Shown: positions 7,606 through 33,636 of the stretch, piece after piece
Numbering within the stretch: the stretch's first letter is position 1
Layout of the letters: every line of letters begins with the position of its first letter
Virus record (IMG/VR): IMGVR_UViG_3300037172_000055
Coordinates: 1-41,230 of that record
Direction: 5' to 3' (one strand)
Length of the DNA: 41,230 bases
Origin: a virus
Program-made: the position numbers and the translations under genes
The notes under the pieces: generated by a model
Told to the model about the DNA's origin: nothing
The model's database searches: none
Seen by the model: only the letters and a program-made list of their open reading frames with translations

Positions 7606-7878
7606 ATGATTGCTGATATTTATGCTTTTTCTAGAGATGGATTTACACATGATACTTTTCAAAATTTTTTAAACGGTGATTTTCATGATGTGTTTCAGTT
7701 TGACCGGTCTACTATACCACCATATAATCTGTTTAAAGTATCAATCAATTTAGATGATTATGATATAAGTTGTGGACCTGGTGTTGTATATAATCATACT
7801 GTCTTACATTTTAGAAAGAAAACTATAAACTCCAGACATGCAGAAAGTGGTGAACGGAGGCTTGAACCTTATTTATGA
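7606..7878 (+). CDS. tagged small protein, unknown
   Basis: 90 residues beginning 9 bp after tRNA-Glu. The body is aromatic-rich (FQNFLNGDFHDVFQFDR, NLFKVSINLDDYDIS) and likely a small beta domain. The last residues, S-R-H-A-E-S-G-E-R-R-L-E-P-Y-L, carry the C-terminal module found on 25 proteins here. It overlaps the next tagged gene by 4 bp. No function recognised. Confidence 0.75.
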   Translation: MIADIYAFSRDGFTHDTFQNFLNGDFHDVFQFDRSTIPPYNLFKVSINLDDYDISCGPGVVYNHTVLHFRKKTINSRHAESGERRLEPYL

Positions 7879-8168
7879 ATGAATATATAGTAGGAGATGA
7901 AGTTTCTGTAACTCTTAAGTCTGGTAATCGAGTTAAAGCAAAGATTATAAGTATTGATAATGACGAGCTTGCACTAAAGTTTGTAGAGTATACAGAGCTT
8001 ATAAACATTGATGCAAGCGTTGGTTCAAGCGTTGGTTCAAGCGTTGGTTCAGGCGGTGGTTCAGACGGTTGGCCTATTATTCATAGACACATAAATGAGG
8101 TAATCTCTTTAGTATCTAAAATTAGAAAAGAAAATCCTTTTGATAGGAAACTGGAGTTTGATTTATGA
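7875..8168 (+). CDS. tagged SH3/KOW-like small protein with SVGS repeat
   Basis: 97 residues. Residues 2-45 (EYIVGDEVSVTLKSGNRVKA, then I-I-S-I-D) have the G-D-x-V strand-turn pattern of small SH3/KOW-type barrels, shared with the array at 26.7-29.2 kb. A linker follows in which a 12-bp unit (GCGTTGGTTCAA-like) is repeated about three times to give SVGSSVGSSVGS, then GGGSDG. The C-terminus, K-E-N-P-F-D-R-K-L-E-F-D-L, is the common tail. The linker implies the tail must sit away from the barrel. Overlaps neighbours by 4 bp on both sides. Confidence 0.75.
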   Translation: MNEYIVGDEVSVTLKSGNRVKAKIISIDNDELALKFVEYTELINIDASVGSSVGSSVGSGGGSDGWPIIHRHINEVISLVSKIRKENPFDRKLEFDL

Positions 8169-8647
8169 CAATAACAAAAATAGGTAATAGATGGTATGAT
8201 GAAAACAATAATAGCTGGTTATCAGAAGAAGCAGCTACTCAATACTCACCTACCCTAACTAATTGTAGAGAGTGTAGAGATTGTAGTAATTGTAGAGATT
8301 GTTATAATTGTAGTAATTGGTGTAGTAATTGTAATAGTTGTAGTAATTGTATTAATTGTAGTAGTTGTAATTATTGTAGTAATTGTATTAATTGTAGTAA
8401 TTGTAGAGATTGTAGAGATTGTAGTAATTGTAGTAGTTGTAGTAATTGTAGTGGTTGTAGTGGTTGTGATGATTGTAGTGATTGTATTGCTTGTAGTTAT
8501 TGTGGTAATTGTAAAGATTGTTTTCACTGCTATTTATGTAAAATTTGTAGTAACCTTAGATTTTATGAAAAAGGATCACAATTAGATACTACTACTATAA
8601 GGGTGGAGGCTAATGCTTTTGACAGAAAATTAGAAATAGACTTATGA
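8165..8647 (+). CDS. Cys-triplet repeat protein, copy 1 (32 Cys)
   Basis: 160 residues. Residues 1-33 form the family N-domain (T-I-T-K-I-G-N-R-W-Y-D-E-N-N-N-S-W, then Y-S-P-T-L-T-N). From C34 there are 32 cysteines spaced every third residue, the other positions mostly Ser/Asn/Asp/Arg/Gly. One phase slip occurs: S-N-W-C has three residues before the Cys instead of two. A spacer of about 30 residues leads to the common tail F-D-R-K-L-E-I-D-L. Nearly all Cys codons are TGT, so the DNA is a 9-bp-flavoured tandem repeat (TGTAGTAAT-like). Metal or Fe-S binding, or a one-faced Cys rod, are possible; the family is not one I can name. Confidence 0.85.
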   Translation: MTITKIGNRWYDENNNSWLSEEAATQYSPTLTNCRECRDCSNCRDCYNCSNWCSNCNSCSNCINCSSCNYCSNCINCSNCRDCRDCSNCSSCSNCSGCSGCDDCSDCIACSYCGNCKDCFHCYLCKICSNLRFYEKGSQLDTTTIRVEANAFDRKLEIDL

Positions 8648-8949
8648 AAAAAGACACACTTGTAACATTAACCAAATTAAAACCCGTTGAAAATCCAGAG
8701 TATCCAACTCCAAATAAAGCAGACTACAGACCAGGACAATTTAATGGAAATGTAAGTTTACCAATAGATTATACAGCTACTGGAATTTTATTAGAAGATA
8801 TTGAGGTTGGAGAGCCTATTCTTATGTTCAGACATATTAGAAATGGGATTAAAACTCCTGGTCATTTTTCTTCTAGCCGAGTCTCTAAAATAGAAGGTAA
8901 TTTGTTATACACTAATAACAGTATTTATAAAATTGAAATATTAACTTAA
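8644..8949 (+). CDS. small beta-rich protein, unknown
   Basis: 101 residues, no C-terminal tag. Motif-like segments are G-I-L-L-E-D-I-E-V-G-E-P-I, F-R-H-I-R-N-G-I and HFSSSRVSKIEGNLLYTNNSIY, a pattern I associate with small phage beta-barrel proteins of unknown function. Coupled by ATGA overlap to the Cys-triplet gene before it. Confidence 0.7.
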   Translation: MKKDTLVTLTKLKPVENPEYPTPNKADYRPGQFNGNVSLPIDYTATGILLEDIEVGEPILMFRHIRNGIKTPGHFSSSRVSKIEGNLLYTNNSIYKIEILT

Positions 8950-8954
8950 ACTAT

Positions 8955-9377
8955 ATGGAACAACTATATAAAAAGACAAAAAAGAATGGTAAGACTAAAT
9001 ATGCTAAGGTGAATTTAAAAGACTTGGCTGATAATTTACTAGTTGATAGAATGACTCTAAGCCCAGGTCTTTGGCTGGTTAAAGAAGTTCCTAATTGTAA
9101 GTCATTAAGTTCAGTTTCTAAAGTATCTAGAATACCGGATTACCCCTACGATTTTACTAGTATAATCATGAATCGTGACGAACTGGCCGATTTCCTCGTC
9201 AAATTTAACAATGATTATACTAAAAAACATCCTAGCTCAGGGAATGGATGGCAAATATTTCCGAGTTATTCCGAACTAGCTGAGGCTATTTTAAATGAAT
9301 TGGTTAGACTGGCTGGCCTAGGATTTGGTGAAAAGCGAGAAGTACCTGTAACTAGAAAATTAGATTTGGAGTTATAA
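8955..9377 (+). CDS. tagged protein, paralogue of the next gene
   Basis: 140 residues. The N-terminal half contains V-N-L-K-D-L-A-D, L-S-P-G-L-W-L-V-K-E-V-P-N and S-S-V-S-K-V-S-R-I-P-D-Y-P. The next protein has V-A-L-S-D-V-S, L-E-A-G-I-Y-L-V-K-P-L-P-N and S-I-I-S-K-L-A-K-Y-P-D-K-P at matching positions, so the two are paralogues. The C-terminus, V-T-R-K-L-D-L-E-L, is the common tail, and here it ends in TAA without overlapping a start. That shows the terminal Leu is not just a by-product of TTATGA overlaps. Confidence 0.75.
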   Translation: MEQLYKKTKKNGKTKYAKVNLKDLADNLLVDRMTLSPGLWLVKEVPNCKSLSSVSKVSRIPDYPYDFTSIIMNRDELADFLVKFNNDYTKKHPSSGNGWQIFPSYSELAEAILNELVRLAGLGFGEKREVPVTRKLDLEL

Positions 9378-9378
9378 T

Positions 9379-9819
9379 ATGGCAGACCTATACTATAAAG
9401 TTGGAAAAAGATATAGAGTAGCTTTATCTGATGTAAGTGAGGGAGCTATGACAACATTTTTATCAGAAGATGGAATAAGACCTACCTTTCTAACTATGGG
9501 AAATTTGGAGGCAGGTATATATTTGGTAAAACCACTACCTAATACTACTTTAGTGAGTATAATCTCTAAACTAGCTAAATACCCTGATAAACCTGAATTA
9601 CTGGCTCAAATAAAAGTTACCCAGTCTGAAATGGAATATTTTATTGCTGAGTATAGAAGAACTAGGGTTACTAAAATAGGAATTGATACATTAAGTAATC
9701 AAGAAATAGCCAAGGTTCTTTTTGATTATCTTATATCTAAATCTGGTATTAAATTTTCGGAGAAGCCGGTTGAAAAAGTTGAACATATAGTAGAACGAAA
9801 ACTAGAACTGGATTTATAA
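9379..9819 (+). CDS. tagged protein, paralogue of the preceding gene
   Basis: 146 residues, starting 1 bp after its paralogue. Shared block L-x-x-G-[LI]-[WY]-L-V-K-x-x-P-N, then a helical second half (EMEYFIAEYRR, QEIAKVLFDYLIS). It ends H-I-V-E-R-K-L-E-L-D-L. The stop is directly followed by tRNA-Ala at 9821. Function unknown. Confidence 0.75.
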   Translation: MADLYYKVGKRYRVALSDVSEGAMTTFLSEDGIRPTFLTMGNLEAGIYLVKPLPNTTLVSIISKLAKYPDKPELLAQIKVTQSEMEYFIAEYRRTRVTKIGIDTLSNQEIAKVLFDYLISKSGIKFSEKPVEKVEHIVERKLELDL

Positions 9820-9820
9820 C

Positions 9821-9892
9821 GGGGCTATAGTGATAATAGTAGCACGGAAGTTTTGCAAACTTCAGGACACAGAGCGTAACTGTGTAGTTCCA
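9821..9892 (+). tRNA. tRNA-Ala(TGC)
   Basis: Acceptor GGGGCTA/TAGTTCC with two G-U pairs, anticodon stem GAAGT/ACTTC with loop TTTGCAA, T arm CACAG/CTGTG, discriminator A. CCA is not encoded (ATC follows). It starts 1 bp after the stop of the upstream gene. Confidence 0.8.
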
Positions 9893-9896
9893 ATCC

Positions 9897-9970
9897 GGTC
9901 TGGAAGCATTAAAGTGATGCAGAGAACTCTTAATTCTCAGAATAGGGAGCGTTACCCTAGCAGACCACCA
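9897..9970 (+). tRNA. tRNA-Lys(CTT)
   Basis: Acceptor GGTCTGG/GCAGACC (the innermost pair is a mismatch), D arm GCAT/ATGC, anticodon stem GAGAA/TTCTC with loop CTCTTAA, T arm TAGGG/CCCTA, encoded A-CCA. Confidence 0.85.
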
Positions 9971-9976
9971 ATTAAA

Positions 9977-10222
9977 ATGAATGATCAAGTTAAACATGTA
10001 GAAATTATTACTATACCTCTGCCTATAGTGCTAGAAATAGTAAAGGAGTATGTAGAAGCTAAATATAATCTAACTGGTGGAGAAATATATTTAAGAAGAA
10101 AAACAGGACCAATACCTGATCCTGAATTGTATGATTTAAAATATAGAACTGTTGCAACACAAGCTGATATACATAAAGATTTATCAGAATTGCTGGAAAG
10201 AAAGTTAGAAATTGATTTGTAA
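9977..10222 (+). CDS. tagged small protein, unknown
   Basis: 81 residues from ATG 9977. The frame extends upstream to 9830, but that part is two tRNA genes. The body is helical and Ile/Val-rich (IPLPIVLEIVKEYVEAKYN), then L-S-E-L-L-E-R-K-L-E-I-D-L at the end, the common tail. It sits between tRNA-Lys(CTT) and tRNA-Lys(TTT). The second half may correspond to the helical C-terminal part of the two proteins before it. Confidence 0.7.
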   Translation: MNDQVKHVEIITIPLPIVLEIVKEYVEAKYNLTGGEIYLRRKTGPIPDPELYDLKYRTVATQADIHKDLSELLERKLEIDL

Positions 10223-10228
10223 GTCATT

Positions 10229-10305
10229 GCAAACGAAGCTTATATGGATAAGCAACCGACTTTTAATCGGTAGATAGCTTGGTTCGAATCCAGCCGTTTG
10301 CACCA
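10229..10305 (+). tRNA. tRNA-Lys(TTT)
   Basis: Acceptor GCAAACG/CGTTTGC, D arm GCTT/AAGC, anticodon stem ACCGA/TCGGT with loop CTTTTAA, T loop TTCGAAT, encoded A-CCA. Followed by AATTTA, as many tRNAs here are. Confidence 0.88.
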
Positions 10306-10317
10306 ATTTAATAATTT

Positions 10318-10403
10318 GCACTGTTATCCCGTAGAGGTAGCGGATTCGACTGTAGATCGAATGCTAAATAGCTCGGGTGGTTCAACTCCATCACAGTGCA
10401 CCA
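10318..10403 (+). tRNA. tRNA-Tyr(GTA)
   Basis: Acceptor GCACTGT/ACAGTGC, anticodon stem TTCGA/TCGAA with loop CTGTAGA, extended variable region as expected for bacterial Tyr, T arm GGTGG/CCATC, encoded A-CCA. Confidence 0.85.
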
Positions 10404-10415
10404 GACCAAAACAAA

Positions 10416-10673
10416 ATGAAAATAAAACTAAAATATAATGCAACAGGTGCAATGAAAATTATCATGCACATCTTAAAAAGATCTACTAAACGGCATAAGG
10501 CCCTAACTTTTAAACAAATAATGAGAGAAGGTTTAAGACTTTTTGGACCGTATCTTTATAGTGAAGACTATATGAGAAAAGGTATGGCTGACCTTAGAAG
10601 AATAAAATTTAGACTTGTTAATCATAAACCAAAAGATTTAAGGATACAATATAGTTATAGGTACATATACTAA
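10416..10673 (+). CDS. small basic protein, unknown
   Basis: 85 residues from ATG 10416; the frame opens earlier inside tRNA-Tyr, which is not a credible start. Rich in Lys/Arg/Tyr, with a helix-like segment (TGAMKIIMHILKRSTKRHK) and a C-terminus R-I-Q-Y-S-Y-R-Y-I-Y. Possibly nucleic-acid-binding by charge. No tag and no family recognised. Confidence 0.6.
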   Translation: MKIKLKYNATGAMKIIMHILKRSTKRHKALTFKQIMREGLRLFGPYLYSEDYMRKGMADLRRIKFRLVNHKPKDLRIQYSYRYIY

Positions 10674-10688
10674 TATAGTATAGTGACA

Positions 10689-11702: not shown

Positions 11703-11725
11703 TCCAAACTAGCAACAACAATTAT

Positions 11726-11811: not shown

Positions 11812-12309
11812 ATGACAATAACTAAAAGAGACGATAGATGGTATGACGAAAACAATAATAGTTGGAGAACAGAAGAATCAGCTACTACATACTCACTTAC
11901 CCTAATTAATTGTAGAGATTGTAGTAGTTGTAATAATTGTATAGGTTGTAGTGGTTGTAGAGATTGTAGTGGTTGTAATAATTGTAATAATTGTAATAAT
12001 TGTAATAATTGTTATAATTGTAGTGGTTGTAGTGCTTGTAATATTTTTAATTATTGTCATGATTGCAGTAGTTGTTTTAATTGTTATGATTGTAGTTATT
12101 GTATTTGTTGTAATCAGTGTATAAGTTGTAGTGATTGTAGAGATTGTAATAATTGTAGTTATTGTAGTCATTGTAGTAATTGTAGTTATTGTAATCATTG
12201 TGAATTGTGTGGAAAATTAGTTGATCAAAAGTTTCAAGAAAAGATTAAAGACCCATTAATTAGGACAGAGTTTAATGTAGAAAACAGGTTACTAGAACCA
12301 GACTTATAA
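11812..12309 (+). CDS. Cys-triplet repeat protein, copy 2 (33 Cys)
   Basis: 165 residues. N-domain variant T-K-R-D-D-R-W-Y-D-E-N-N-N-S-W-R-T-E-E, then 33 cysteines at three-residue spacing. One triplet has Phe in the Cys place (N-I-F-N-Y-C). Four consecutive N-N-C units around residues 56-67 point to recent repeat expansion. The block Q-C-I-S-C-S-D-C-R-D-C-N-N-C is also in the copy at 20247. The tail, V-E-N-R-L-L-E-P-D-L, has Leu in the variable second position. Starts 10 bp after tRNA-Asp. Confidence 0.85.
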   Translation: MTITKRDDRWYDENNNSWRTEESATTYSLTLINCRDCSSCNNCIGCSGCRDCSGCNNCNNCNNCNNCYNCSGCSACNIFNYCHDCSSCFNCYDCSYCICCNQCISCSDCRDCNNCSYCSHCSNCSYCNHCELCGKLVDQKFQEKIKDPLIRTEFNVENRLLEPDL

Positions 12310-14990: not shown

Positions 14991-15434
14991 ATGACAATAA
15001 CTAAAAGAGACGATAGATGGTATGATGAACGAGGTAATAGTTGGAGAACAGAAGAATCAGCTACTACATACTCACTTACCCTAATTAATTGTAGAGATTG
15101 TAGTAATTGTAGTAATTGTATTAATTGTAATAATTGTAATAATTGTATAGGTTGTAGTACTTGTAGAGGTTGTATTAGTTGTAGTGTTTGTAGTGTTTGT
15201 AGTGATTGTAGTAGTTGTAGTAGTTGTAGTGGTTGTAATAGTTGTAGTGGTTGTAGTACTTGTTATAATTGTAGTGGTTGTAATAGTTGTAGTAGTTGGT
15301 GTGATCATTGTATTAATTGTAATAATTGTAGTAGTTGTATTGGTTGTAATGACTGGACTAATAACATGAAATATGAACCGGTAATTAGACCATTTATAGA
15401 TTGTAGAGATAGACTATTAGACCCTTATTTATGA
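14991..15434 (+). CDS. Cys-triplet repeat protein, copy 3 (29 Cys)
   Basis: 147 residues. The N-domain differs from most copies at D-E-R-G-N-S-W (usually D-E-N-N-N-S-W). It has 29 cysteines with one phase slip, S-S-W-C, resembling the S-N-W-C slip in copy 1. The block C-I-S-C-S-V-C-S-V-C-S-D-C-S-S-C is shared with the copy at 33157. Its spacer and tail (R-P-F-I-D-C-R-D-R-L-L-D-P-Y-L) match those of the copy at 27997. Overlaps the next gene by 4 bp. Confidence 0.85.
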   Translation: MTITKRDDRWYDERGNSWRTEESATTYSLTLINCRDCSNCSNCINCNNCNNCIGCSTCRGCISCSVCSVCSDCSSCSSCSGCNSCSGCSTCYNCSGCNSCSSWCDHCINCNNCSSCIGCNDWTNNMKYEPVIRPFIDCRDRLLDPYL

Positions 15435-18242: not shown

Positions 18243-18318
18243 CCGGTTCTGGTGTAGTAGGTCTGCACGCTTGACTGAAAATCAAGAGGTCGTTTTTCGA
18301 TTAAACGGAACCGGGCCA
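18243..18318 (+). tRNA. tRNA-Phe(GAA)
   Basis: Acceptor CCGGTTC/GAACCGG, anticodon stem CTTGA/TCAAG with loop CTGAAAA, T arm CGTTT/AAACG with TTCGATT loop, G73 and encoded CCA. Confidence 0.88.
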
Positions 18319-19059: not shown

Positions 19060-19327
19060 ATGCCTACAAAAATACAAGATTGTAAAGGTTTATCTGTTTG
19101 TATTAATAATCATGTCTTCAAATCTAATGAGGTTAGATTAATACCATTTAGTGCTGCTGAAAAAGAATGTAAATGTGTTCTTTATACTGATAGTGACTAT
19201 GTTATAAAAAGACGAGAGCCAGTAGATCTAGAATTTCCTGGATTTTAGAAATGCCCCTACTAATTCAACACCAATAAAAGGTGTTGATAATACAATACCT
19301 GAGAGGAGATTAGAAATAGATTTATGA
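19060..19327 (+). CDS. tagged small protein requiring a +1 frameshift at 19243-19246
   Basis: The ATG 19060 frame gives 62 residues (T-K-I-Q-D-C-K-G-L-S-V to E-F-P-G-F) and stops at TAG 19246-19248. The +1 frame is open from 19232 and encodes R-N-A-P-T-N-S-T-P, then T-I-P-E-R-R-L-E-I-D-L-stop, a perfect copy of the tail on 24 other proteins here. It ends in the usual ATGA overlap with the gene at 19324. The shift site reads GGA-TTT-TAG-A: a tRNA-Phe on TTT can re-pair with TTT one base downstream, facing the slow TAG. A joined product would be 88 residues, the size of the other tagged proteins. Either programmed +1 shifting, a recent one-base insertion, or a sequencing error. Confidence 0.6.
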
Positions 19328-20246: not shown

Positions 20247-20708
20247 ATGAAGATAACAAAAAGAGCTGATAGATGGTATGACGAAAACAATAATAGCTGG
20301 TTATCAGAAGAAGCAGCTACTCTATACTCACCTACCCTAACTAATTGTAGTAATTGTAATAATTGTAATTATTGTAGAGATTGTAGTTATTGTAGTAGTT
20401 GTATTTATTCTAATGGTTGTAGTAGTTGTAGTAGTTGTAGTGAGTGTAATGGTTGTAGGAATTCTCTTAATTGTATTAGTTGTAATCAGTGTATAAGTTG
20501 TAGTGATTGTAGAGATTGTAATAATTGTAGTGTTTGTAGTCTTTGTAGAGATTGTAGTTATTGTAGTAATTGTAATAATTGTAGAAAATGTGAAAATTGT
20601 TATCTCGTTAGTAGTCTTGAAAATTACGCCCCACTTCTTAAATTTGAACCATCTTCAACTAGACCAGAATTAGATATTAATGATAGGAAATTAGAACCAG
20701 ACTTATGA
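20247..20708 (+). CDS. Cys-triplet repeat protein, copy 4 (27 Cys)
   Basis: 153 residues with N-domain K-I-T-K-R-A-D-R-W-Y-D-E-N-N-N-S-W. There are 27 cysteines on a three-residue grid, and two grid positions carry Ser (C-I-Y-S-N-G-C and C-R-N-S-L-N-C) through TGT to TCT changes. The period is kept although Cys is lost. The Q-C-I-S-C-S-D-C-R-D-C-N-N-C block is shared with copy 2. The tail is T-R-P-E-L-D-I-N-D-R-K-L-E-P-D-L. It directly follows a terminator, so it may have its own promoter or be reached by read-through. Confidence 0.85.
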   Translation: MKITKRADRWYDENNNSWLSEEAATLYSPTLTNCSNCNNCNYCRDCSYCSSCIYSNGCSSCSSCSECNGCRNSLNCISCNQCISCSDCRDCNNCSVCSLCRDCSYCSNCNNCRKCENCYLVSSLENYAPLLKFEPSSTRPELDINDRKLEPDL

Positions 20709-22525: not shown

Positions 22526-22978
22526 ATGAAACGACCTACAAGAAAAGCAACATTAGAAGATTCAGTAACGTATATTCTAGCAGAGATTAAAGAATTAGAA
22601 GCTTGTCAATATCTGCTTACGCAGATCATTTATAAACTTACTAATGATTATGCACCGGATGATACTCTTTCTGATAGTGTAGCTAAGATAACTGAAAGAA
22701 TAACTCGTAAAAAGTGCAGGCTGTTTGAACAATTAGCCACAATTTCTGTTCTTAGCCCAACTGCTGAAGCTAAGTTAAAACAAAGATTAATCGATAAATT
22801 AAATAAATCTGGTTCATATTTCAGCAATTTTGTTAATCAATCTTGGACTGATATCTCTACCAACCCTGAAGAATTAAAGCAAACTATAAAAGATCAGATG
22901 AGTAAAGCATTACAAGTAAGAGAGGATGAGGTAGATATGATAGCAGTACCTAAAAGGAAGTTAGAACCAGATCTATGA
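22526..22978 (+). CDS. tagged helical protein, unknown
   Basis: 150 residues, largely helical with coiled-coil-like stretches (SVTYILAEIKELEACQYLLT, VAKITERITRKKCRLFEQLA). It is the largest tagged protein that is neither Cys-triplet nor from the 8955/9379 family. C-terminus V-P-K-R-K-L-E-P-D-L. Overlaps the following Cys-triplet gene by 4 bp. Confidence 0.75.
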   Translation: MKRPTRKATLEDSVTYILAEIKELEACQYLLTQIIYKLTNDYAPDDTLSDSVAKITERITRKKCRLFEQLATISVLSPTAEAKLKQRLIDKLNKSGSYFSNFVNQSWTDISTNPEELKQTIKDQMSKALQVREDEVDMIAVPKRKLEPDL

Positions 22979-23367
22979 AGATAACTAAACGAGAAAATGA
23001 TAGATGGTATGACGAAAACAATAATAGCTGGGATAGTGAAGAACTAGCTACTCAACTCTCACCTACCTTAACCGATTGTAATGATTGTTATAGATGTAGA
23101 GATTGTAGAGATTGTGGTCATTGTAGGGGTTGTATTAATTGTAGTGATTGTTTAAGTTGTGATATTTGTGTAGATTGTAGAAATTGTCGTCTTTGTAGAT
23201 ATTGTTATGCTTGTTATGGTTGTAGTTGGTGTAATAATTGTAGTAATTGTTTAGGCTTATATAATTATCGAGATAAAGAAAATTTAGAACCTCAAGTAAG
23301 AATATTACCTCCAACATCAAGAATAGAATTAGATATTAATGATAGGAAATTAGAACCAGACTTATGA
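22975..23367 (+). CDS. Cys-triplet repeat protein, copy 5 (20 Cys)
   Basis: 130 residues. N-domain with one extra residue (T-K-R-E-N-D-R-W-Y-D) and W-D-S-E-E-L-A-T. The 20 cysteines have more varied partners (Arg, Tyr, Leu, His) than in other copies, so this is likely an older, less homogenised member. The spacer N-Y-R-D-K-E-N-L-E-P-Q-V resembles H-Y-N-E-E-K-L-K-P-Q in the copy at 31737. The tail D-I-N-D-R-K-L-E-P-D-L is identical to copy 4. Confidence 0.85.
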   Translation: MKITKRENDRWYDENNNSWDSEELATQLSPTLTDCNDCYRCRDCRDCGHCRGCINCSDCLSCDICVDCRNCRLCRYCYACYGCSWCNNCSNCLGLYNYRDKENLEPQVRILPPTSRIELDINDRKLEPDL

Positions 23368-26670: not shown

Positions 26671-26946
26671 ATGAAAAAATTTAAAATAGGAGACAAAGTA
26701 TCATTTACAGTTAATATTTTAGGACATAAAATAAATGGCATGGGTGAAGTAGAGTATGAATCAAATGAAGGGGATACTTTTTGTTTAGTAAAAATTTATG
26801 AAATTGAAGAGAATGATTTTGAGATGGTAATTGGTACTTCACAATGTATGTTAGTAAGGTATATAACAGCTTTATATCAACCTGAACAAATTACTCATAG
26901 TTTTGACTCATACATTACTAATAGAAGATTGGAGTTAGAATTATGA
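26671..26946 (+). CDS. tagged SH3/KOW-like protein, array member 1
   Basis: 91 residues. F-K-I-G-D-K-V-S-F-T-V opens the barrel-like domain, then G-M-G-E-V-E-Y and F-C-L-V-K-I-Y-E-I-E. C-terminus D-S-Y-I-T-N-R-R-L-E-L-E-L. First of nine consecutive genes on 26671-29166 (eight SH3-like and one Cys-triplet) that overlap end to start by 4 or more bp. Confidence 0.75.
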   Translation: MKKFKIGDKVSFTVNILGHKINGMGEVEYESNEGDTFCLVKIYEIEENDFEMVIGTSQCMLVRYITALYQPEQITHSFDSYITNRRLELEL

Positions 26947-27209
26947 AAGAACCAGAAGTAGGTGAGATTGTTGAGTTCATTATATTTGAACCAGTGGCTG
27001 ATACAGTTTCAGAAATAGCAGGAACTGGCGAAATTGTTGAAATAGATAATCATCTATATATTGTAAAAGTATATACTATCAAACAAAATGACGAAACTAT
27101 ATATAAATATTTAATTGGAGACAAATTAGTACTGTTTGAATCAGAAATAGAAGTTATAGGAAGAAAAGAAATTACCTTAGATGATAGGAGACTTGATTTA
27201 GAATTATGA
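26943..27209 (+). CDS. tagged SH3/KOW-like protein, array member 2
   Basis: 88 residues. P-E-V-G-E-I-V-E-F, G-T-G-E-I-V-E-I-D, Y-I-V-K-V-Y-T-I-K match member 1 (G-M-G-E-V-E, L-V-K-I-Y-E-I-E), so the two are close paralogues. Tail L-D-D-R-R-L-D-L-E-L. Confidence 0.75.
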   Translation: MKEPEVGEIVEFIIFEPVADTVSEIAGTGEIVEIDNHLYIVKVYTIKQNDETIYKYLIGDKLVLFESEIEVIGRKEITLDDRRLDLEL

Positions 27210-27478
27210 CTAACCTACAAATAGATGATATGGTTACCTTTAATTTCATTAGGAGTTTATCTGGAGAACTTAACATAATTTCAGGTCTAGGTGTGATTAA
27301 GGAAGTAAATGAGAGAGTTTGTTTGGTAGAGGTGATCTCTATTAATGACCCTAGATTAGGAGGACTATATAAGTTCTTAACATTAGGACATTACTGGGTA
27401 AAATTCTTTTCCAGACCATTACCAACTATAAGAACCGAAACTTACTTAACTAATAGAAGATTGGAGTTAGAACTATGA
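27206..27478 (+). CDS. tagged SH3/KOW-like protein, array member 3
   Basis: 90 residues. L-Q-I-D-D-M-V-T-F has Asp where most members have Gly in the GD turn. G-L-G-V-I-K-E-V and C-L-V-E-V-I-S-I align with members 1 and 2. Tail T-Y-L-T-N-R-R-L-E-L-E-L, nearly identical to member 1, suggesting recent duplication of at least the tail. Confidence 0.75.
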   Translation: MTNLQIDDMVTFNFIRSLSGELNIISGLGVIKEVNERVCLVEVISINDPRLGGLYKFLTLGHYWVKFFSRPLPTIRTETYLTNRRLELEL

Positions 27479-27741
27479 ATGAATTTGAAATAGGTGACTT
27501 AGTAGTGCTGGATTGGTCTAGTAATTTGGAGCCTGATGCAAAGGCTGAGGCAGTGATTATTCAGGTTTTTAATAAGTGCAACTACATCTATCGAGTAAGA
27601 GTTAATGAAATGTTCAAGTTTTCAAGTGTAACCTGGTATATAGGAGAAGAACTCTTAGTGAACGTAAGAAATTTAACAAAAGTCCCTGCAACTACTAGAA
27701 CAGAAAACATATATGAGCGAAACCTTGACCCATATTTATAA
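27475..27741 (+). CDS. tagged SH3/KOW-like protein, array member 4
   Basis: 88 residues. E-F-E-I-G-D-L-V-V-L-D-W opens the domain; Y-R-V-R-V-N-E and W-Y-I-G-E-E-L-L-V follow. Tail R-T-E-N-I-Y-E-R-N-L-D-P-Y-L. Its last 29 bp also encode the N-terminus of the next gene in another frame. Confidence 0.75.
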   Translation: MNEFEIGDLVVLDWSSNLEPDAKAEAVIIQVFNKCNYIYRVRVNEMFKFSSVTWYIGEELLVNVRNLTKVPATTRTENIYERNLDPYL

Positions 27742-28000
27742 TGTAGGTGATGTAGTTAAAGGATATTATAGAAATAAGACTGATAATAATTGTACGGGTG
27801 TTATATTATATCAAACATCAATATTTAATTTGCCTTATTACTATATAGAATTATTAGAGCCTATCATTACTGCATCTTTTACAGTTGGTGTAATTTTATT
27901 AATAAAAGAAAAAGAAATTAGTACAAAACTCTATTCCATACCAGCTACAAGAGTGGATAATAGTGATTTAAATAATCGAAGACTAGACCCTTTCTTATGA
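27713..28000 (+). CDS. tagged SH3/KOW-like protein, array member 5
   Basis: 95 residues from ATG 27713, a start inside the upstream gene's tail region. No later in-frame ATG precedes Y-N-V-G-D-V-V-K-G-Y, so the long overlap appears real. Later segments Y-Y-Y-I-E-L-L-E and V-G-V-I-L-L-I-K. Tail T-R-V-D-N-S-D-L-N-N-R-R-L-D-P-F-L. Confidence 0.7.
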   Translation: MSETLTHIYNVGDVVKGYYRNKTDNNCTGVILYQTSIFNLPYYYIELLEPIITASFTVGVILLIKEKEISTKLYSIPATRVDNSDLNNRRLDPFL

Positions 28001-28428
28001 CAATAACTAAAAGAGATAATAGATGGTTTGACGAAAACAATAATAGTTGGATAACTGAAGAAGAAGCTACTCAATACTCACCTACCCTAACTAATTGTAG
28101 TTGGTGTGGTGGTTGTAGTTGGTGTAATGATTGTTATAGTTGTATTAATTGTTATGATTGTAGTAATTGTAGAGATTGTAGCTATTGTAATAATTGTAGT
28201 AATTGTAGAGGTTGTAGTAATTGTGGTAGTTGTATTGATTGTAGTAATTGTAGTGCTTGTAGAGATTGTAGTAGTTGTATTGATTGTAGTAATTGTAGAG
28301 ATTGTAGAGAGTGTAGAGATTGTAGTAATTGTATTGATTGTAGAGATTGTACTAATAATAAGAAGTATGAACCAGTAACTAGACCATTTATAGACTGTAC
28401 TAACAGACTATTAGAACCAGACTTATGA
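27997..28428 (+). CDS. Cys-triplet repeat protein, copy 6 (29 Cys)
   Basis: 143 residues, embedded in the SH3-like array. The N-domain has F for Y in R-W-F-D-E-N-N-N-S-W and I-T-E-E-E-A-T. It has 29 uninterrupted cysteines with no phase slip or missing Cys, the cleanest array in the set. It begins with S-W-C-G-G-C-S-W-C. The spacer after the array is only N-N-K-K-Y-E-P-V-T-R-P-F-I-D-C, then T-N-R-L-L-E-P-D-L, matching copy 3. Confidence 0.85.
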   Translation: MTITKRDNRWFDENNNSWITEEEATQYSPTLTNCSWCGGCSWCNDCYSCINCYDCSNCRDCSYCNNCSNCRGCSNCGSCIDCSNCSACRDCSSCIDCSNCRDCRECRDCSNCIDCRDCTNNKKYEPVTRPFIDCTNRLLEPDL

Positions 28429-28667
28429 CACAAAAGGAATATAAAGTAGGAGATGTGGTTGATTTTGAGGTTAGTAATTTGAAAGGAATAGGAACTATAA
28501 CACCATATAATGGAGACATAATGTATGCTGTAATTATAGAGGAATTTCCCGGTATACCTAGTAGAACTAAATGGCATATATTTCCTGATGAAATAACAGG
28601 TATACATGTTGAACCTAGAATAGAATTTGACATCACAAAAGATAGAAGATTAGAGTTAGAACTATGA
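28425..28667 (+). CDS. tagged SH3/KOW-like protein, array member 6
   Basis: 80 residues, the shortest member. E-Y-K-V-G-D-V-V-D-F-E-V, G-I-G-T-I-T-P and Y-A-V-I-I-E-E-F show the barrel pattern. Tail I-T-K-D-R-R-L-E-L-E-L. Overlaps neighbours by 4 bp. Confidence 0.75.
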   Translation: MTQKEYKVGDVVDFEVSNLKGIGTITPYNGDIMYAVIIEEFPGIPSRTKWHIFPDEITGIHVEPRIEFDITKDRRLELEL

Positions 28668-28918
28668 ATGAATTTGAAGAAGGAATGAAAGTTATAGTTA
28701 CTTTTTATAGCGGTAATAAAGCTGTAGGAATAATAATATGGTATGCTGATGATACTTCCTATGAAGTTGAAGTCTTGCATTATACAGAAATTAATGATAA
28801 AGAGAAAACGGTGGAGACATTTCCAAATCCTTATAGTAACATTAGCTTCATAAATACCGAAGCAATACCAAGTAGAACAGAGAATCCTTTTGATAGAAAA
28901 TTGGAACCAGATCTATGA
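28664..28918 (+). CDS. tagged SH3/KOW-like protein, array member 7
   Basis: 84 residues. E-F-E-E-G-M-K-V-I-V-T-F-Y-S-G-N-K-A-V-G-I-I closely matches the members at 7875 (V-T-L-K-S-G-N-R-V-K-A-K-I) and 30420 (V-T-F-T-F-S-G-N-Q-A-I-G-V), forming a sub-family. Tail R-T-E-N-P-F-D-R-K-L-E-P-D-L. Confidence 0.75.
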   Translation: MNEFEEGMKVIVTFYSGNKAVGIIIWYADDTSYEVEVLHYTEINDKEKTVETFPNPYSNISFINTEAIPSRTENPFDRKLEPDL

Positions 28919-29166
28919 GTGAATATAAAGTAGGAGATGTTGTAGTTTATTGGTCTATTAGTTCTAACTCAGAGGCAGTTGCTAAGATAGTCGAAACCGA
29001 TTGGACTAGTTTTAATTATTTAAGGGTAATTATAATAAAACATGATCATCTTAGTGCAGGTACATCAATTTATTTAACAGAGAGTGAAATAATAAGATTG
29101 GACGGTCCCATTATAAAACACTGTTTTGATATTATGTTAGACAGAAGATTAGATTTGGAACTATAA
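28915..29166 (+). CDS. tagged SH3/KOW-like protein, array member 8
   Basis: 83 residues. E-Y-K-V-G-D-V-V-V-Y-W, A-V-A-K-I-V-E-T and Y-L-R-V-I-I-I-K. Tail I-M-L-D-R-R-L-D-L-E-L, ending in TAA with no downstream overlap. It is the last gene of the continuous array before the G-free gap. Confidence 0.75.
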   Translation: MSEYKVGDVVVYWSISSNSEAVAKIVETDWTSFNYLRVIIIKHDHLSAGTSIYLTESEIIRLDGPIIKHCFDIMLDRRLDLEL

Positions 29167-29565: not shown

Positions 29566-29782
29566 CTACCTCAATGACCCGGATAATGACTTAACTGTTG
29601 AACTTGATGCTGAATTATTAAAGAAGATTCAACTAGATACTCTTTATAGTCTATTAATTAAGAGTACTGAAGCCTTAAATCTGCCTGCTATCTCTAAGGA
29701 GCATACTGATATAATGGTAATTCATTTAATCCTTAATGAAATAGAACTTTTGAAATATGGATTCAACATTAAAGAAGTGTAA
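29549..29782 (+). CDS. small acidic helical protein, unknown
   Basis: 77 residues from ATG 29549; a TTG 12 bp upstream is less likely. Helical and acidic (DDLTVELDAELLKK-like, DTLYSLLIKSTEALN, VIHLILNEIELLKYG). No tag, no motif. Confidence 0.58.
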   Translation: MKTLTNYLNDPDNDLTVELDAELLKKIQLDTLYSLLIKSTEALNLPAISKEHTDIMVIHLILNEIELLKYGFNIKEV

Positions 29783-29805
29783 GAAACTAATAACCTGGGC
29801 TGAGC

Positions 29806-30006
29806 ATGAAATTAAAGATTGAATACTTGAAACTACTATATAAAAGAGTACTTAACTGTATATACTATGCTTGTTTGACTGACCAATACTTAAGTTGTAT
29901 AGTACTAATTATAGTTTATCCTATATCTCTTATTATAGTGAATCTATATAACAAAGTTGTAATTAAAGATAGTAAACCTAATTGTTGGAATGATTTTTTC
30001 TTCTAA
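29806..30006 (+). CDS. small single-pass membrane protein
   Basis: 66 residues. A basic amphipathic N-terminus (LKIEYLKLLYKRVLN) precedes one strongly hydrophobic helix (about 31-49: CIVLIIVYPISLIIVNLY), then a polar tail ending W-N-D-F-F-F. Likely inner-membrane. Followed 3 bp later by a Cys-triplet gene. Confidence 0.62.
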   Translation: MKLKIEYLKLLYKRVLNCIYYACLTDQYLSCIVLIIVYPISLIIVNLYNKVVIKDSKPNCWNDFFF

Positions 30007-30009
30007 GAT

Positions 30010-30423
30010 ATGACAATAACAAAAAGAGATGATAGATGGTATGACGAAAACGATAATAGCTGGTTATCAGAAGAAGCAGCTACTCTATACTCACCTAATC
30101 TAACTAATTGTAGTGGTTGTATTGATTGTAGAGATTGTAGAGATTGTATTAATTGTAGTTATTGTAGTCATTGTATTAGTTGTATTAGTTGTAGTGATTG
30201 TTATGATTGTAATGATTGTAGTAATTGTAGAAATTGTATTAGTTGTAGTAATTGTAGTAATTGTAGAAATTGTATTAGTTGTTATGATTGTAACGATTGT
30301 AAATATGTCTGTTGCCTGACAGACAGAACAAGATTTACTGCTCAATTCGAACCTGCTACAGAAGATACTATAATAAGACCTGAACTTGACATTAATAATA
30401 GAAGACTTGAAATTGAACTATGA
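30010..30423 (+). CDS. Cys-triplet repeat protein, copy 7 (22 grid Cys)
   Basis: 137 residues. N-domain R-D-D-R-W-Y-D-E-N-D-N-S-W. It has 22 cysteines on the grid, with an internal direct repeat of C-S-N-C-R-N-C-I-S-C (a 30-bp duplication). The array ends in an off-grid K-Y-V-C-C. The spacer E-D-T-I-I-R-P-E-L-D-I-N-N-R-R-L-E-I-E-L is identical to that of the copy at 31737, so the C-terminal module is shared between two copies whose arrays differ. Confidence 0.85.
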   Translation: MTITKRDDRWYDENDNSWLSEEAATLYSPNLTNCSGCIDCRDCRDCINCSYCSHCISCISCSDCYDCNDCSNCRNCISCSNCSNCRNCISCYDCNDCKYVCCLTDRTRFTAQFEPATEDTIIRPELDINNRRLEIEL

Positions 30424-30683
30424 ATGAATTTAATATAGGTGACATTATTTCTGTAACATTTACTTTTTCTGGTAATCAAGCTATTGGTGTTGTAACTGAC
30501 GATGATAAGTTTATGATCACGTCTTATACTAAAGTACTTAAACCAGACTATGTAGTTAAAGGTTTATCAGACCGTGAACCTCTTTATGGATGTAATATAA
30601 GGAATATTCAACTAGTATCACGGAGTATTAGACAAGTTAGACAAGAAGACCCATTTTCCCGTAACCTAGACCCATATCTATGA
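30420..30683 (+). CDS. tagged SH3/KOW-like protein, detached member
   Basis: 87 residues. E-F-N-I-G-D-I-I-S-V-T-F-T-F-S-G-N-Q-A-I-G-V-V, closest to array member 7 and to the 7875 protein. Tail R-Q-E-D-P-F-S-R-N-L-D-P-Y-L. It directly follows a Cys-triplet gene, an adjacency seen elsewhere (7875/8165, 27713/27997, 27997/28425). Confidence 0.75.
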   Translation: MNEFNIGDIISVTFTFSGNQAIGVVTDDDKFMITSYTKVLKPDYVVKGLSDREPLYGCNIRNIQLVSRSIRQVRQEDPFSRNLDPYL

Positions 30684-31129
30684 ATGAAGAATACCTTAAA
30701 CTAGTTAAAGAACTGCAAACTACAGTAAAAATTGAATTGGACAAAGCTCCACTAAAAGATAATTACTCCTCAAACTATCCTGAAGCATCTGTTAATACCT
30801 TGGCAGTTAATATAGGTATTATTATAGATGATAGATTTAGTGTTAATGACTTATCCAATACTAACACTATAAACCCTCCTATTAAGCTCTATTGGCTCCA
30901 GGTCACGTCCTATAATGATTTTGAAGTCTTCCTGTCTACTAGAGGTATTCCAGCCTATATCTCATTTGACGGTGATCTAGGCCCTAAAGTAAAGGATGGT
31001 GAGGATTGCGCCAAACTACTTGTAAAGGTATGTAAGGCCAATAAGTTGAAAGAACTACCTCAATACGAATGTCACTCCCCTACCCTCTCTAAGAAACAGA
31101 AGATAGAAGAGATACTATTAAACTATTGA
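30680..31129 (+). CDS. unknown protein
   Basis: 149 residues. Segments V-N-T-L-A-V-N-I-G-I-I-I-D-D-R-F, I-K-L-Y-W-L-Q-V-T-S-Y-N-D-F-E-V-F-L and K-L-L-V-K-V-C-K-A-N-K-L suggest an alpha/beta fold. No catalytic motif and no tag. Overlaps the tagged gene before it by 4 bp. Confidence 0.62.
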   Translation: MNEEYLKLVKELQTTVKIELDKAPLKDNYSSNYPEASVNTLAVNIGIIIDDRFSVNDLSNTNTINPPIKLYWLQVTSYNDFEVFLSTRGIPAYISFDGDLGPKVKDGEDCAKLLVKVCKANKLKELPQYECHSPTLSKKQKIEEILLNY

Positions 31130-31132
31130 TTA

Positions 31133-31432
31133 ATGAGAACAGAGCTTGAATGTAATAAGAGAGACTTGGAGGATCATCTATTATCAGAAGCTATTGAAAG
31201 CTTTAGTAATATTCTCTCTAATAATGGTTGTAATGATCTTTATATACCGAATACTGAGGAAGCTAGGCTACTTTGGGATGAATATCAAGCTTGGAACCTC
31301 AAAACTCCTTTAACCGAGCTTAAAGGACATGTAGATTACTGGCCACCCTACGTCGATTCCAAGAATAGGTTAGTAGTATATGATTCTTTATTCATATACT
31401 TATTGCGAAAACGTACAGGTTTGCTAGATTAG
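31133..31432 (+). CDS. unknown protein
   Basis: 99 residues. Helical N-terminus with acidic residues (R-D-L-E-D-H-L-L-S-E-A-I-E-S-F), then E-A-R-L-L-W-D-E-Y-Q-A-W-N and a Trp/Tyr-rich segment V-D-Y-W-P-P-Y-V-D. Ends 7 bp before tRNA-Leu(TAA). Confidence 0.6.
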   Translation: MRTELECNKRDLEDHLLSEAIESFSNILSNNGCNDLYIPNTEEARLLWDEYQAWNLKTPLTELKGHVDYWPPYVDSKNRLVVYDSLFIYLLRKRTGLLD

Positions 31433-31439
31433 ACTTTAT

Positions 31440-31528
31440 GCCTATGTGGTGGAATTGCTAGACACCCGGGAATTAAGATCCCGTGACCTTCAAAAGTCGT
31501 GCAGGTTGAAGTCCTGCCATGGGCACCA
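31440..31528 (+). tRNA. tRNA-Leu(TAA)
   Basis: Acceptor GCCTATG/CATGGGC, anticodon stem CGGGA/TCCCG with loop ATTAAGA, long variable arm, T arm GCAGG/CCTGC, encoded A-CCA. A normal class II Leu tRNA, in contrast to the TAG one. Confidence 0.88.
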
Positions 31529-31542
31529 ATTTAAATAACATT

Positions 31543-31740
31543 ATGGCTCAATTAATAATAAAGAATATTACCATGAATCAAGCCAAAGTATTAGCTAGTT
31601 ACTACCAAAGACAAGGGGAACAACACGCTGAAGTATGGTTTGAAGACAGAAACGAAGAAACACCAATAGTAGATGTATCAAAACGTCCTTGGTTAATAGT
31701 AGATGAAAAAGAAGAAACTGTAACTATTATTTGTAAATGA
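31543..31740 (+). CDS. small protein, unknown
   Basis: 65 residues from ATG 31543; an earlier in-frame ATG lies in the tRNA 3' end. A-Q-L-I-I-K-N-I-T, A-K-V-L-A-S-Y-Y-Q-R-Q-G, A-E-V-W-F-E-D-R and K-E-E-T-V-T-I-I-C-K give a compact beta-alpha-beta pattern. Overlaps the Cys-triplet gene by 4 bp. Confidence 0.62.
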   Translation: MAQLIIKNITMNQAKVLASYYQRQGEQHAEVWFEDRNEETPIVDVSKRPWLIVDEKEETVTIICK

Positions 31741-32075
31741 AACTAACAAAAATAGGTAATAGATGGTATGATGAAAACAATAATAGTTGGTATTCTGAAG
31801 AAGAAGCTACTAAATACTCACCTACCCTAACTAATTGTAGTAATTGTAGTAATTGTATTAATTGTAGTAATTGTAGTAATTGTAGTGATTGTACTAGTTG
31901 TTATATATGTGTTAATTGTAGTAATTGTAGTGAGTGTTATAGATGTAGAGATTGTATTAGTTTGTATAGACATTACAACGAAGAAAAATTAAAACCTCAG
32001 AAGTATGACACTGAAGATACTATAATAAGACCTGAACTTGACATTAATAATAGAAGACTTGAAATTGAACTATGA
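31737..32075 (+). CDS. Cys-triplet repeat protein, copy 8 (14 Cys)
   Basis: 112 residues, the shortest copy. N-domain K-L-T-K-I-G-N-R-W-Y-D-E-N-N-N-S-W-Y-S-E-E. Only 14 cysteines, the first six almost pure S-N-C, so array length varies more than twofold within the family while the N- and C-modules stay constant. Spacer and tail (D-T-I-I-R-P-E-L-D-I-N-N-R-R-L-E-I-E-L) match copy 7. Coupled by overlap to the AAA+ gene. Confidence 0.85.
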   Translation: MKLTKIGNRWYDENNNSWYSEEEATKYSPTLTNCSNCSNCINCSNCSNCSDCTSCYICVNCSNCSECYRCRDCISLYRHYNEEKLKPQKYDTEDTIIRPELDINNRRLEIEL

Positions 32076-33052
32076 CCACCAATAATTTAGAAGAATTTGG
32101 TACTAAACTACCAGAACATACAGCTAAATCTAATCAGATTATGATACCTGATGCTATCCTTTATGCTGCACCAGAAGAAATCAATGTAGCTAATGGATCA
32201 GCTCAAACTCCTACTCAATGGACGGAGCCAGTTTCAGGAATGTTTTTATCCACACCTGAAACAATTAAGAAGTTACCGTCTAATGTATATAAGTATGTAG
32301 CTTATTCAGATAATAAATGGGGTTTTCTGAAAGTTAATATCAATGTTGACGAACTACTATTACTACCTGATAGTACTTCAGATCTAGTACTTCAAGAGAT
32401 TCAAACCTTTCTAGACAATGCGGAAACCTTTAAATACTATGATGTATTGCATAGAAGAGGGTTCTTATTCTATGGTCCAGCAGGTTCAGGCAAGACTTGC
32501 TTAGTACAACAAATCATTAAGAAGGTGATTGACCAGAATGGAGTGATTTTGCTTTGTGATAACCCACAAGCTATCGAACTAGGTTTAAGAGACCTTAGAG
32601 CAGTTGAGCCAGATAGATTCATAGTTTGTCTATTCGAAGATATTGATGCCTTGATTCAAAGATATGGAGAGAAGGAGATTCTTGCTATATTAGATGGTGA
32701 AAGTCAAATCAACAAAGTCTTGAATATAGGAACAACTAATTACCCTGAAGTATTGGATAGGAGAATCATTAGACCTCGTAGATTTGATATGGTGATTAAG
32801 ATTGACTGGCCTAGTGAAGCAGTTAGACGACATTATTTTAAGAATAAGCTTAAGATTGATGACAAAGAACTGGGTAAGTGGGTTAACGCCACGGATAAGT
32901 TCTCCTTCGCTGCTTGTGCTGAGTTGATGATTAGTGTTAAATGTCTAGGTAAGGATTTTGAGAAAGCAGTGGAACATTTACGTGAATTAATGAAACATAA
33001 ACCAGATAGCCGGGATTTTAACAGCCCTGCAGACTTTAATATAGGACATTAG
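32072..33052 (+). CDS. AAA+ ATPase
   Basis: 326 residues. A roughly 120-residue N-terminal domain precedes the ATPase core: F-L-F-Y-G-P-A-G-S-G-K-T (Walker A, 135-142), I-V-C-L-F-E-D-I-D (Walker B with E189-D190), I-G-T-T-N (sensor 1), then D-R-R-I-I-R-P-R-R-F-D (arginine-finger region). The C-terminal helical lid follows. This pattern is of the FtsH/BCS1/proteasomal-ATPase group, which remodel or thread proteins. No protease domain or transmembrane helix is present. It is co-translated with a tagged Cys-triplet gene, which makes it a candidate handler of tagged proteins, by context only. Confidence 0.83.
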   Translation: MTTNNLEEFGTKLPEHTAKSNQIMIPDAILYAAPEEINVANGSAQTPTQWTEPVSGMFLSTPETIKKLPSNVYKYVAYSDNKWGFLKVNINVDELLLLPDSTSDLVLQEIQTFLDNAETFKYYDVLHRRGFLFYGPAGSGKTCLVQQIIKKVIDQNGVILLCDNPQAIELGLRDLRAVEPDRFIVCLFEDIDALIQRYGEKEILAILDGESQINKVLNIGTTNYPEVLDRRIIRPRRFDMVIKIDWPSEAVRRHYFKNKLKIDDKELGKWVNATDKFSFAACAELMISVKCLGKDFEKAVEHLRELMKHKPDSRDFNSPADFNIGH

Positions 33053-33059
33053 TTTTAAA

Positions 33060-33148
33060 GGATAGTTAACTAGTAAAGTTACTAGAACAGTTTACTAAAC
33101 TGATTGCTCCTTAACTGGAGTGGGGAGCATTACCTCAGCTATCCTCCA
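33060..33148 (+). tRNA. tRNA-Ser-like, anticodon ACT
   Basis: Acceptor GGATAGT/GCTATCC, D arm CTAG/CTAG, anticodon stem CAGT/ACTG with loop TTACTAA, long variable arm CTCC-TTAACT-GGAG, T arm TGGGG/CCTCA, encoded T-CCA. The class II shape supports Ser. An A at position 34 is very unusual for a bacterial Ser tRNA (normally GCT for AGC/AGT). Confidence 0.7.
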
Positions 33149-33156
33149 ATTTACTT

Positions 33157-33636
33157 ATGAAACTAACAAAAAGAGATGATAGATGGTATGACGAAAACAA
33201 TAATAGCTGGTTATCAGAAGAAGCAGCTACTCAATACTCACCTACCCTAACTAATTGTTATGATTGTAGAGGTTGTAGTTATTGTGATGATTGTAGTTAT
33301 TGTGATGATTGTAGTAATTGTAGTAATTGTAGTAGTTGTAGTAGTTGTATTAGTAGTTGTATTAGTTGTAGTGTTTGTAGTGTTTGTAGTGATTGTAGTA
33401 GTTGTAATCAGTGTATAAGTTGTAGTGATTGTAGTAATTGTAGTAGGTGTACTAGTTGTAATCGTTGTAGCGGTTGTAGCGGTTGTAGTGATTGTACTCG
33501 TTGTATTGATTGTAGTTGGTGTAGTTTACTTATAGATAGAATAAGATTTTTCCCACAAACTGGCCCTGACAACTCGGAACTAATAACTAGAAAAGAAATA
33601 GCATTAACAGATCGAAATCTGGAACCATTTTTATGA
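33157..33636 (+). CDS. Cys-triplet repeat protein, copy 9 (30 Cys)
   Basis: 159 residues. Standard N-domain, then 30 cysteines with one phase slip (S-C-I-S-S-C-I-S-C). It has an internal tandem duplication S-Y-C-D-D-C-S-Y-C-D-D-C. It shares S-V-C-S-V-C-S-D-C-S-S-C with copy 3 and N-Q-C-I-S-C-S-D-C with copies 2 and 4, so it reads as a mosaic. The spacer is different from the other copies (P-Q-T-G-P-D-N-S-E), followed by A-L-T-D-R-N-L-E-P-F-L. Confidence 0.85.
   Translation: MKLTKRDDRWYDENNNSWLSEEAATQYSPTLTNCYDCRGCSYCDDCSYCDDCSNCSNCSSCSSCISSCISCSVCSVCSDCSSCNQCISCSDCSNCSRCTSCNRCSGCSGCSDCTRCIDCSWCSLLIDRIRFFPQTGPDNSELITRKEIALTDRNLEPFL

Follow-up and report, generated by a model that had tools for sequence, protein, structure and literature searches.

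A shared C-terminal tail on otherwise unrelated small proteins of a large uncultured bacteriophage, a probable docking tag

The window studied here (the whole stretch of 41,230 nucleotides analyzed, positions 1 to 41,230 of IMG/VR record IMGVR_UViG_3300037172_000055) belongs to a large uncultured bacteriophage, and between positions 7606 and 33,636 it carries gene ends that share one C-terminal tail, R-x-L-[DE]-x-x-L-stop. All 25 ends named in the original prediction, a model's reading of the letters alone, were present and matched this motif, 24 of them on intact genes and one on a broken gene. They are listed below with the type of body that precedes each tail.

7606..7878, + strand: tailed gene, body type C (unique), tail ...RRLEPYL
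7875..8168, + strand: tailed gene, SH3-like small barrel type, tail ...RKLEFDL
8165..8647, + strand: tailed gene, Cys-triplet (CxxC repeat) type, tail ...RKLEIDL
8955..9377, + strand: tailed gene, type D (paired with 9379..9819), tail ...RKLDLEL, TAA stop
9379..9819, + strand: tailed gene, type D (paired with 8955..9377), tail ...RKLELDL, TAA stop
9830..10222, + strand: tailed gene, type E, tail ...RKLEIDL, TAA stop
11812..12309, + strand: tailed gene, Cys-triplet type, tail ...RLLEPDL, TAA stop
14991..15434, + strand: tailed gene, Cys-triplet type, tail ...RLLDPYL
19060..19327, + strand: gene broken by a 44-bp deletion relative to a related contig, last frame still ending ...RRLEIDL
20247..20708, + strand: tailed gene, Cys-triplet type, tail ...RKLEPDL
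22526..22978, + strand: tailed gene, type F, tail ...RKLEPDL
22975..23367, + strand: tailed gene, Cys-triplet type, tail ...RKLEPDL
26671..26946, + strand: tailed gene, SH3-like type, unmatched in the related strain, tail ...RRLELEL
26943..27209, + strand: tailed gene, SH3-like type, unmatched in the related strain, tail ...RRLDLEL
27206..27478, + strand: tailed gene, SH3-like type, matched in the related strain over its last 26 nt only, tail ...RRLELEL
27475..27741, + strand: tailed gene, SH3-like type, tail ...RNLDPYL, TAA stop
27713..28000, + strand: tailed gene, SH3-like type, tail ...RRLDPFL
27997..28428, + strand: tailed gene, Cys-triplet type, tail ...RLLEPDL
28425..28667, + strand: tailed gene, SH3-like type, tail ...RRLELEL
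28664..28918, + strand: tailed gene, SH3-like type, tail SRTENPFDRKLEPDL
28915..29166, + strand: tailed gene, SH3-like type, tail ...RRLDLEL, TAA stop
30010..30423, + strand: tailed gene, Cys-triplet type, tail ...RRLEIEL
30420..30683, + strand: tailed gene, SH3-like type, tail ...RNLDPYL
31737..32075, + strand: tailed gene, Cys-triplet type, stop overlapping the start of the AAA+ gene, tail ...RRLEIEL
33157..33636, + strand: tailed gene, Cys-triplet type, tail ...RNLEPFL

At 19060-19327 the tail had originally been reached by way of a +1 shift. No programmed shift is involved: 44 bp are gone relative to the related contig, where a 103-amino-acid frame runs continuously through to the tail, and the gene is broken.

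Among stop-ended window frames of at least 30 amino acids, the ending R.L[DE]..L closed 25 of 187 on the forward strand and 0 of 319 on the reverse strand, where a looser tail pattern fitted one; all these patterns were composed after the tails had been seen. Amino-acid composition gave a chance expectation of about 0.01 tails in the 187 forward frames. Chance was ruled out as the cause of the tail by these frame counts and this expectation, and the possibility, raised with the prediction itself, that such tails are common by chance in other genes was not borne out. Within the 93 called window genes the motif stood 24 times at the C-terminus and once elsewhere (gene calls, here and below, came from a simple script and include spurious short frames).

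Overlapping records (100% identity over 91.8 and 59.8 kb) were joined into a 212.6-kb composite that is about 98% identical to the window. Contig L067 bridged window positions 36817-41230 (99.2%) and composite positions 1-9029 (100%), which suggests that the map closes at about 217 kb and that the phage would have a circular map of this size. The composite encodes RNA-polymerase-like subunits, a DNA polymerase, a terminase (27% identical to that of the nearest isolates), a ribonucleotide reductase and a tail-sheath-like protein. Exact tails were found on 46 of its 349 called genes, all on the forward strand and located at 16-28, 110, 150-160 and 180-210 kb (46 of 1193 forward frames, 0 of 1351 reverse frames). 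The reverse strand, which carries the RNA-polymerase genes and most of the structural genes, had none. A second element, R-x-[DE] within 10 residues upstream of the tail, accompanied 43 of 70 tailed genes (window and composite together, orthologues being counted twice) against 11 of 243 untailed composite genes; it is thus common among tailed genes, as had been proposed, yet not general.

Codon usage was compared across 44 distinct tails, each 24 nt long and drawn from contig G007 as well as from the window and the composite; they were selected with R.L[DE]..L, so that the fixed residues arise by construction and codon variation alone counts as evidence. In the codons for Arg(-7), Leu(-5), Asp/Glu(-4) and Leu(-1), changes at the first and third bases either kept the residue or interchanged Asp and Glu. 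Arginine at -7 was encoded by AGA, AGG, CGA, CGG and CGT, and leucine at -5 by TTA, TTG, CTA, CTT and CTG. The final leucine codon usually had A in its third position, which is what overlap of a start by TTATGA or CTATGA would produce. This synonymous variation indicates that the peptide is kept, and not a DNA signal. The stop context was ATGA in 19 of the 25 window tails and TAA in the other 6; the TAA-ending genes retain the motif, so that the tail is no by-product of TTATGA overlaps, as had been claimed from the start.

Once their last 22 residues were removed, the bodies formed many clusters without mutual BLASTP match at a threshold of 1e-3, which ruled out whole-protein homology as the cause of the tail and answered the concern that the tails align only because the full proteins are homologous. 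Where at least four unrelated N-terminal types had been suggested, seven were found in the window: Cys-triplet (9 genes), SH3-like (10), the 8955-9819 pair, three singles (7606-7878, 9830-10222 and 22526-22978) and the broken gene. The composite adds several further types. The SH3-like genes split over several BLASTP clusters and were grouped as one type on alignments only. Their predicted structure was a small beta barrel of modest confidence (predicted local distance difference test, pLDDT, 64.7), and the model had no match in the PDB at E<=0.001. Cys-triplet proteins share a conserved N-terminus and a CxxC motif repeated every three residues; their predicted structure was unreliable (pLDDT 50). 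In the composite, 26 of the 28 called Cys-triplet genes were tailed; by visual inspection, one of the two untailed paralogues finishes in a transmembrane-like helix and the other has an unlike C-terminal region. The family matched one PHROG family of unknown function (phrog_15341), and a search for relatives gave 51 pattern matches in genome contigs, none confirmed, and no match in phage records. No known function was assigned to the tailed bodies searched.

Genes that vary between strains were enriched in the tail. Window and composite were compared as two strains about 98% identical, a gene being counted as variable below 70% cover or 85% identity. All 10 variable genes among the 80 forward window genes were tailed, against 14 of the 70 shared genes (Fisher 1.2e-6), and in the syntenic part of the composite the tail was found on 13 of 16 variable genes and 14 of 67 others (Fisher 1.1e-5). 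Of the variable genes, 5 of the 10 in the window and 9 of the 16 in the composite were Cys-triplet genes, and unrelated causes may make the repeats of these diverge fast. With these set aside, the tail was present on 5 of 5 variable window genes against 10 of 66 (2.3e-4), and the link between tail and variability, clear in the window, became weak in the composite. The five remaining window genes have SH3-like bodies that were unmatched, or matched only at their ends, in the composite. In three of these genes the final 26-54 nt matched elsewhere in the composite: only the last 45-54 nt of 27475..27741, at the ends of other genes; and, for 27713..28000, no more than its first 40-57 nt and its last 44 nt, at different places. 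These 3'-end matches fell on other genes' tails or, for 27713-28000, on the stretch before composite gene 200827, without such a body. Their position on the tails of other genes suggests that bodies may have been exchanged at tail joints.

Core genes outside the tailed stretch had been said to lack the tail. This was largely right, and the two near-matches noted then, ending at 36158 and 40551, appear to be genuine variants. The ending [RK]R[LF]D.{0,2}[DE]L, a pattern written after the ends were seen, occurred 3 times against 0.0002 expected among 303 untailed called composite genes, and the VWA-like protein is a further case in the window. The DUF3150 protein (PF11348, E 2e-9) ends TRRLDFDEL, and its homologue in sister contig L066, which has a terminase segment 81% identical, ends TRRLDLEL, an exact tail. 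A 45-amino-acid frame ends NKRFDDL, another variant. The window genes concerned, together with the AAA+ gene, are:

35760..36158, + strand: WGR-domain protein with variant tail FRRLDFGDL (PADLOC WGR match 1e-13; Pfam score below the cut-off)
39604..40551, + strand: VWA-like protein with variant tail PPRRFDDL (PHROG 2971; Bixzunavirus homologue without this end)
32072..33052, + strand: classic-AAA (PAN/CDC48/FtsH-like) ATPase without tail, by guess a candidate tag reader

The VWA-like protein matched PHROG 2971 and phage homologues and no Pfam model, its label being a name given by the model and by us; the WGR protein had no homologue in phage records. Homologues without tail included two plasmid DUF3150 proteins, one plasmid AAA protein, and an AAA and a VWA-like protein of Mycobacterium phages, the AAA protein ending KVRVLDL, which was not counted as a tail. 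The two AAA+ proteins tested both matched PAN/CDC48/FtsH-type models, with scores under the curated cut-offs. MoxR models were absent from their matches, so that, on the assumption that such models would have been listed, neither is of the MoxR clade that a MoxR AAA+/VWA chaperone pair calls for. The composite classic-AAA ATPase ends RRTEGNGEDRALDPFN and its sister-contig homologues end NRELDIS and IRELDIS; these tail-like ends are doubtful tails. Composite ends at 18261, 80450 and 151958 fitted the loose pattern behind the AAA+ end and were taken as chance, and composite gene 152065-152292 (ending ESRL), which matched a loose pattern, was dropped because a similar untailed plasmid protein adjoins DUF3150 (similarity by eye).

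The searches made placed the tail in this phage group alone, with a single further instance in a sister contig. A tblastn search of 50,697 phage records with a 23-amino-acid tail consensus gave no match, the short query having little power. A hidden Markov model (HMM) of the tail, run as a control on this phage group, marked 24 sites in the window, 10 in G002 and 15 in G007; six complete phage records and two of three sister contigs gave no match. Its sole match in the third, G014, was part of a C-terminus thought unrelated, and it missed the exact DUF3150 tail there, so the HMM is not complete. Three exact-pattern scans of IMG/VR, covering only some tail forms with a TATGA end, returned 15, 9 and 5 stretches, of which 13, 9 and 5 lay within this phage group; the two remaining contigs, L073 (7.8 of 19 kb examined) and L082, held no second tail. 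Tagging varied cargo with one common signal is a device already known. No C-terminal tag on more than 40 genes of one phage, no description of such a phage tail and no paper joining 'DUF3150' and 'phage' was met in a literature search that left most subscription journals outside its coverage.

A protein-level tag on non-homologous bodies is well supported by these observations and consistent with one recognizer. To this extent the proposal that one partner recognizes all tailed proteins stands; the protease, unfoldase, virion docking protein and scaffold that it offered are all candidates for that partner. We consider it probable that the tail is a C-terminal docking tag by which exchangeable proteins plug into one common partner in the infected cell. 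The tag would approximate to [TI]-R-x-[ED]-x(2-5)-[DNE]-R-x-L-[DE]-[PLI]-[DEYF]-L-COOH, the first half not being general, and a single hub would read it together with its free carboxylate. New bodies would become useful on recombining onto a tail, as in an arms-race toolkit, and an arms-race role for the tailed genes is what we infer. The identity of the hub is a guess that we hold with considerable doubt: it might be the phage AAA+/DUF3150/VWA/WGR proteins or a scaffold under them, because the DUF3150, VWA and WGR proteins bear the variant tail and the inspected DUF3150 and VWA homologues do not. Somewhat more tentative still is the wider idea of an intracellular address code peculiar to the lineage, in which one AAA+/DUF3150/VWA/WGR machine would make clients of more than 40 unrelated, rapidly exchanged proteins, any body recombining onto the tail would be functional at once, and the same body might instead receive a membrane anchor.

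If the tail were purely a DNA-level feature, either a joint for recombination or a signal that couples translation across ATGA overlaps, the 26-57 nt shared by gene ends between strains and the 19 ATGA ends would follow; the same residues under synonymous codons from both arginine and both leucine families, the six TAA ends and the near confinement of the motif to the C-terminus contradict this as sole cause, which we regard as the least probable account of all; as a route of spread it may still have played a part. A fixed-sequence free C-terminal peptide is a common form of degron, and the phage encodes classic-AAA ATPases, so the tail might be a degron or an unfoldase hand-hold that gives tailed proteins a short life. 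This is improbable: domain searches detected no protease domain in the window AAA+ protein, the variant-tailed DUF3150, WGR and VWA-like proteins would be targets too, and a simple k-mer comparison of tailed with structural genes, in itself uninformative, gave no class-specific promoter and so no early-gene class for the tailed genes. The hydrophobic pattern L-x-[LPI]-x-L could also recall a sliding-clamp or replisome binding motif, since the bacterial clamp hexapeptide has a similar spacing. That hexapeptide opens with glutamine, however, and at the first motif position the 44 distinct tails had R, K, L or N and never glutamine; moreover, no tail closes the composite's DNA polymerase, helicase, SbcC-like or ligase genes (the polymerase-like gene, a PHROG 17 match, ends NNKCWNWK), and a clamp motif seems very improbable.

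Virion packaging is the main rival and was placed second, as an unlikely account in which the tail is a capsid-loading signal and the tailed proteins are packaged and injected internal head proteins like those of T4. Small, strain-variable, tandem genes under one common tag fit it. According to the parts of two sources used here, T-even internal proteins form a highly diverse defense set with only the capsid targeting sequence in common, and this sequence (on internal proteins and Alt) is, like the phage tail, one short conserved tag on diverse small non-homologous proteins, which makes it the closest apparent analogue; an N-terminal position is, however, described there for the T4 signals and for most giant-phage propeptides compared with them (PMC3012670, PMC5694885). 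The T4 sequence is also cleaved, whereas the phage tail lies at the extreme C-terminus with no cleavage known, on 46 forward-strand composite genes and, as a variant, on DUF3150, WGR and VWA-like proteins. A likelier packaging candidate was noticed by eye at the N-terminus of seven proteins around the RNA-polymerase genes, several of which continue into a Pro-rich region:

composite 71934-116954 (G002/G004): set of proteins with an AFINGFIKA-type N-terminal motif or variants, e.g., 89388-90089, 95982-96659 and 100337-101131

The pattern was hand-made and carries no chance estimate, an eighth match, in a UvsX-like gene, being taken as chance. This motif is a candidate prohead-targeting signal and a more natural one for packaging than the C-terminal tail; together with the N-terminal position of the known signals it places virion packaging second. 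Some evidence thus favors an intracellular role, because the reverse strand with most of the structural block is untailed, seven proteins there share an N-terminal motif, and the DUF3150, WGR and VWA-like proteins bear the variant.

Other systems resemble the tail in part. Encapsulin cargo-loading peptides are short, often C-terminal, and dock unrelated cargo to one shell; their sequence differs from that of the phage tail, which has many more clients. In bacterial plasmids, DUF3150 homologues adjoin AAA genes and once a VWA gene too; the phage DUF3150 matched both plasmid DUF3150 proteins, and the sister-contig AAA+ protein matched that of Candidatus Manganitrophus, whereas the AAA and VWA proteins of a Vibrio fluvialis plasmid cluster had no BLASTP match to the phage counterparts. 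None of the five plasmid proteins checked bore the tail, and the phage differs in having these genes scattered and a WGR protein besides. In chimalliviruses, phage-nucleus import through PicA likewise lets phage-encoded machinery handle many phage proteins selectively; in the part of the source drawn on here, no conserved signal sequence is described, a recognition surface being proposed instead of an N- or C-terminal signal (PMC11087766).

Several observations weigh against the tail being a docking tag read by such a hub. The analysis identified no partner, and a defense library search with five tailed bodies gave no convincing match, so no defense or conflict function was found. The window AAA+ protein is untailed, and in this phage the VWA and WGR genes lie apart from DUF3150. 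The end of the composite AAA+ protein, DRALDPFN, lacks the final leucine and the resemblance is weaker in the sister contigs (RELDIS), while the loose pattern behind it fitted 7 of 700 forward and 1 of 792 reverse composite frames, some clearly by chance. With Cys-triplet genes set aside, the composite comparison gave tails on 4 of 7 variable genes against 11 of 64 (0.03), which is weak. The stretches shared at the ends of variable genes mean that the spread may be partly DNA-level. A 30.5-kb sister contig (70% terminase identity) had neither an exact tail nor an HMM match.

A common tag would unite the tailed bodies searched, which have no known function, into one system open to study with a single bait, and a tail binder, if found, would be the hub for a large part of the phage's variable genes. 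The tail could serve phage biology as a C-terminal targeting tag, and would be a test case for viruses that let new proteins plug into an old machine.

Further features were noted around these genes. The composite AAA+ ATPase gene (147278-149260) is split in its Walker A region by a gap that contains a short additional frame; no Rfam match at E<=0.01, and so no recognized intron, was found there, and sister contigs L065 and L066 hold uninterrupted homologues. At composite 151862-152292, a DUF2997-like gene and a small gene follow, by eye, the order seen beside AAA/DUF3150 on the Candidatus Manganitrophus plasmid, where the two flank DUF3150. A PurA/PurZ-like gene adjoins the VWA-like gene (window 38159-40551), and homologues of both are also near neighbors in Bixzunavirus (Wally gp259 and gp261). 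Sixteen tRNA genes, all on the + strand, are placed singly or in pairs among the genes of the window between 7522 and 40722.

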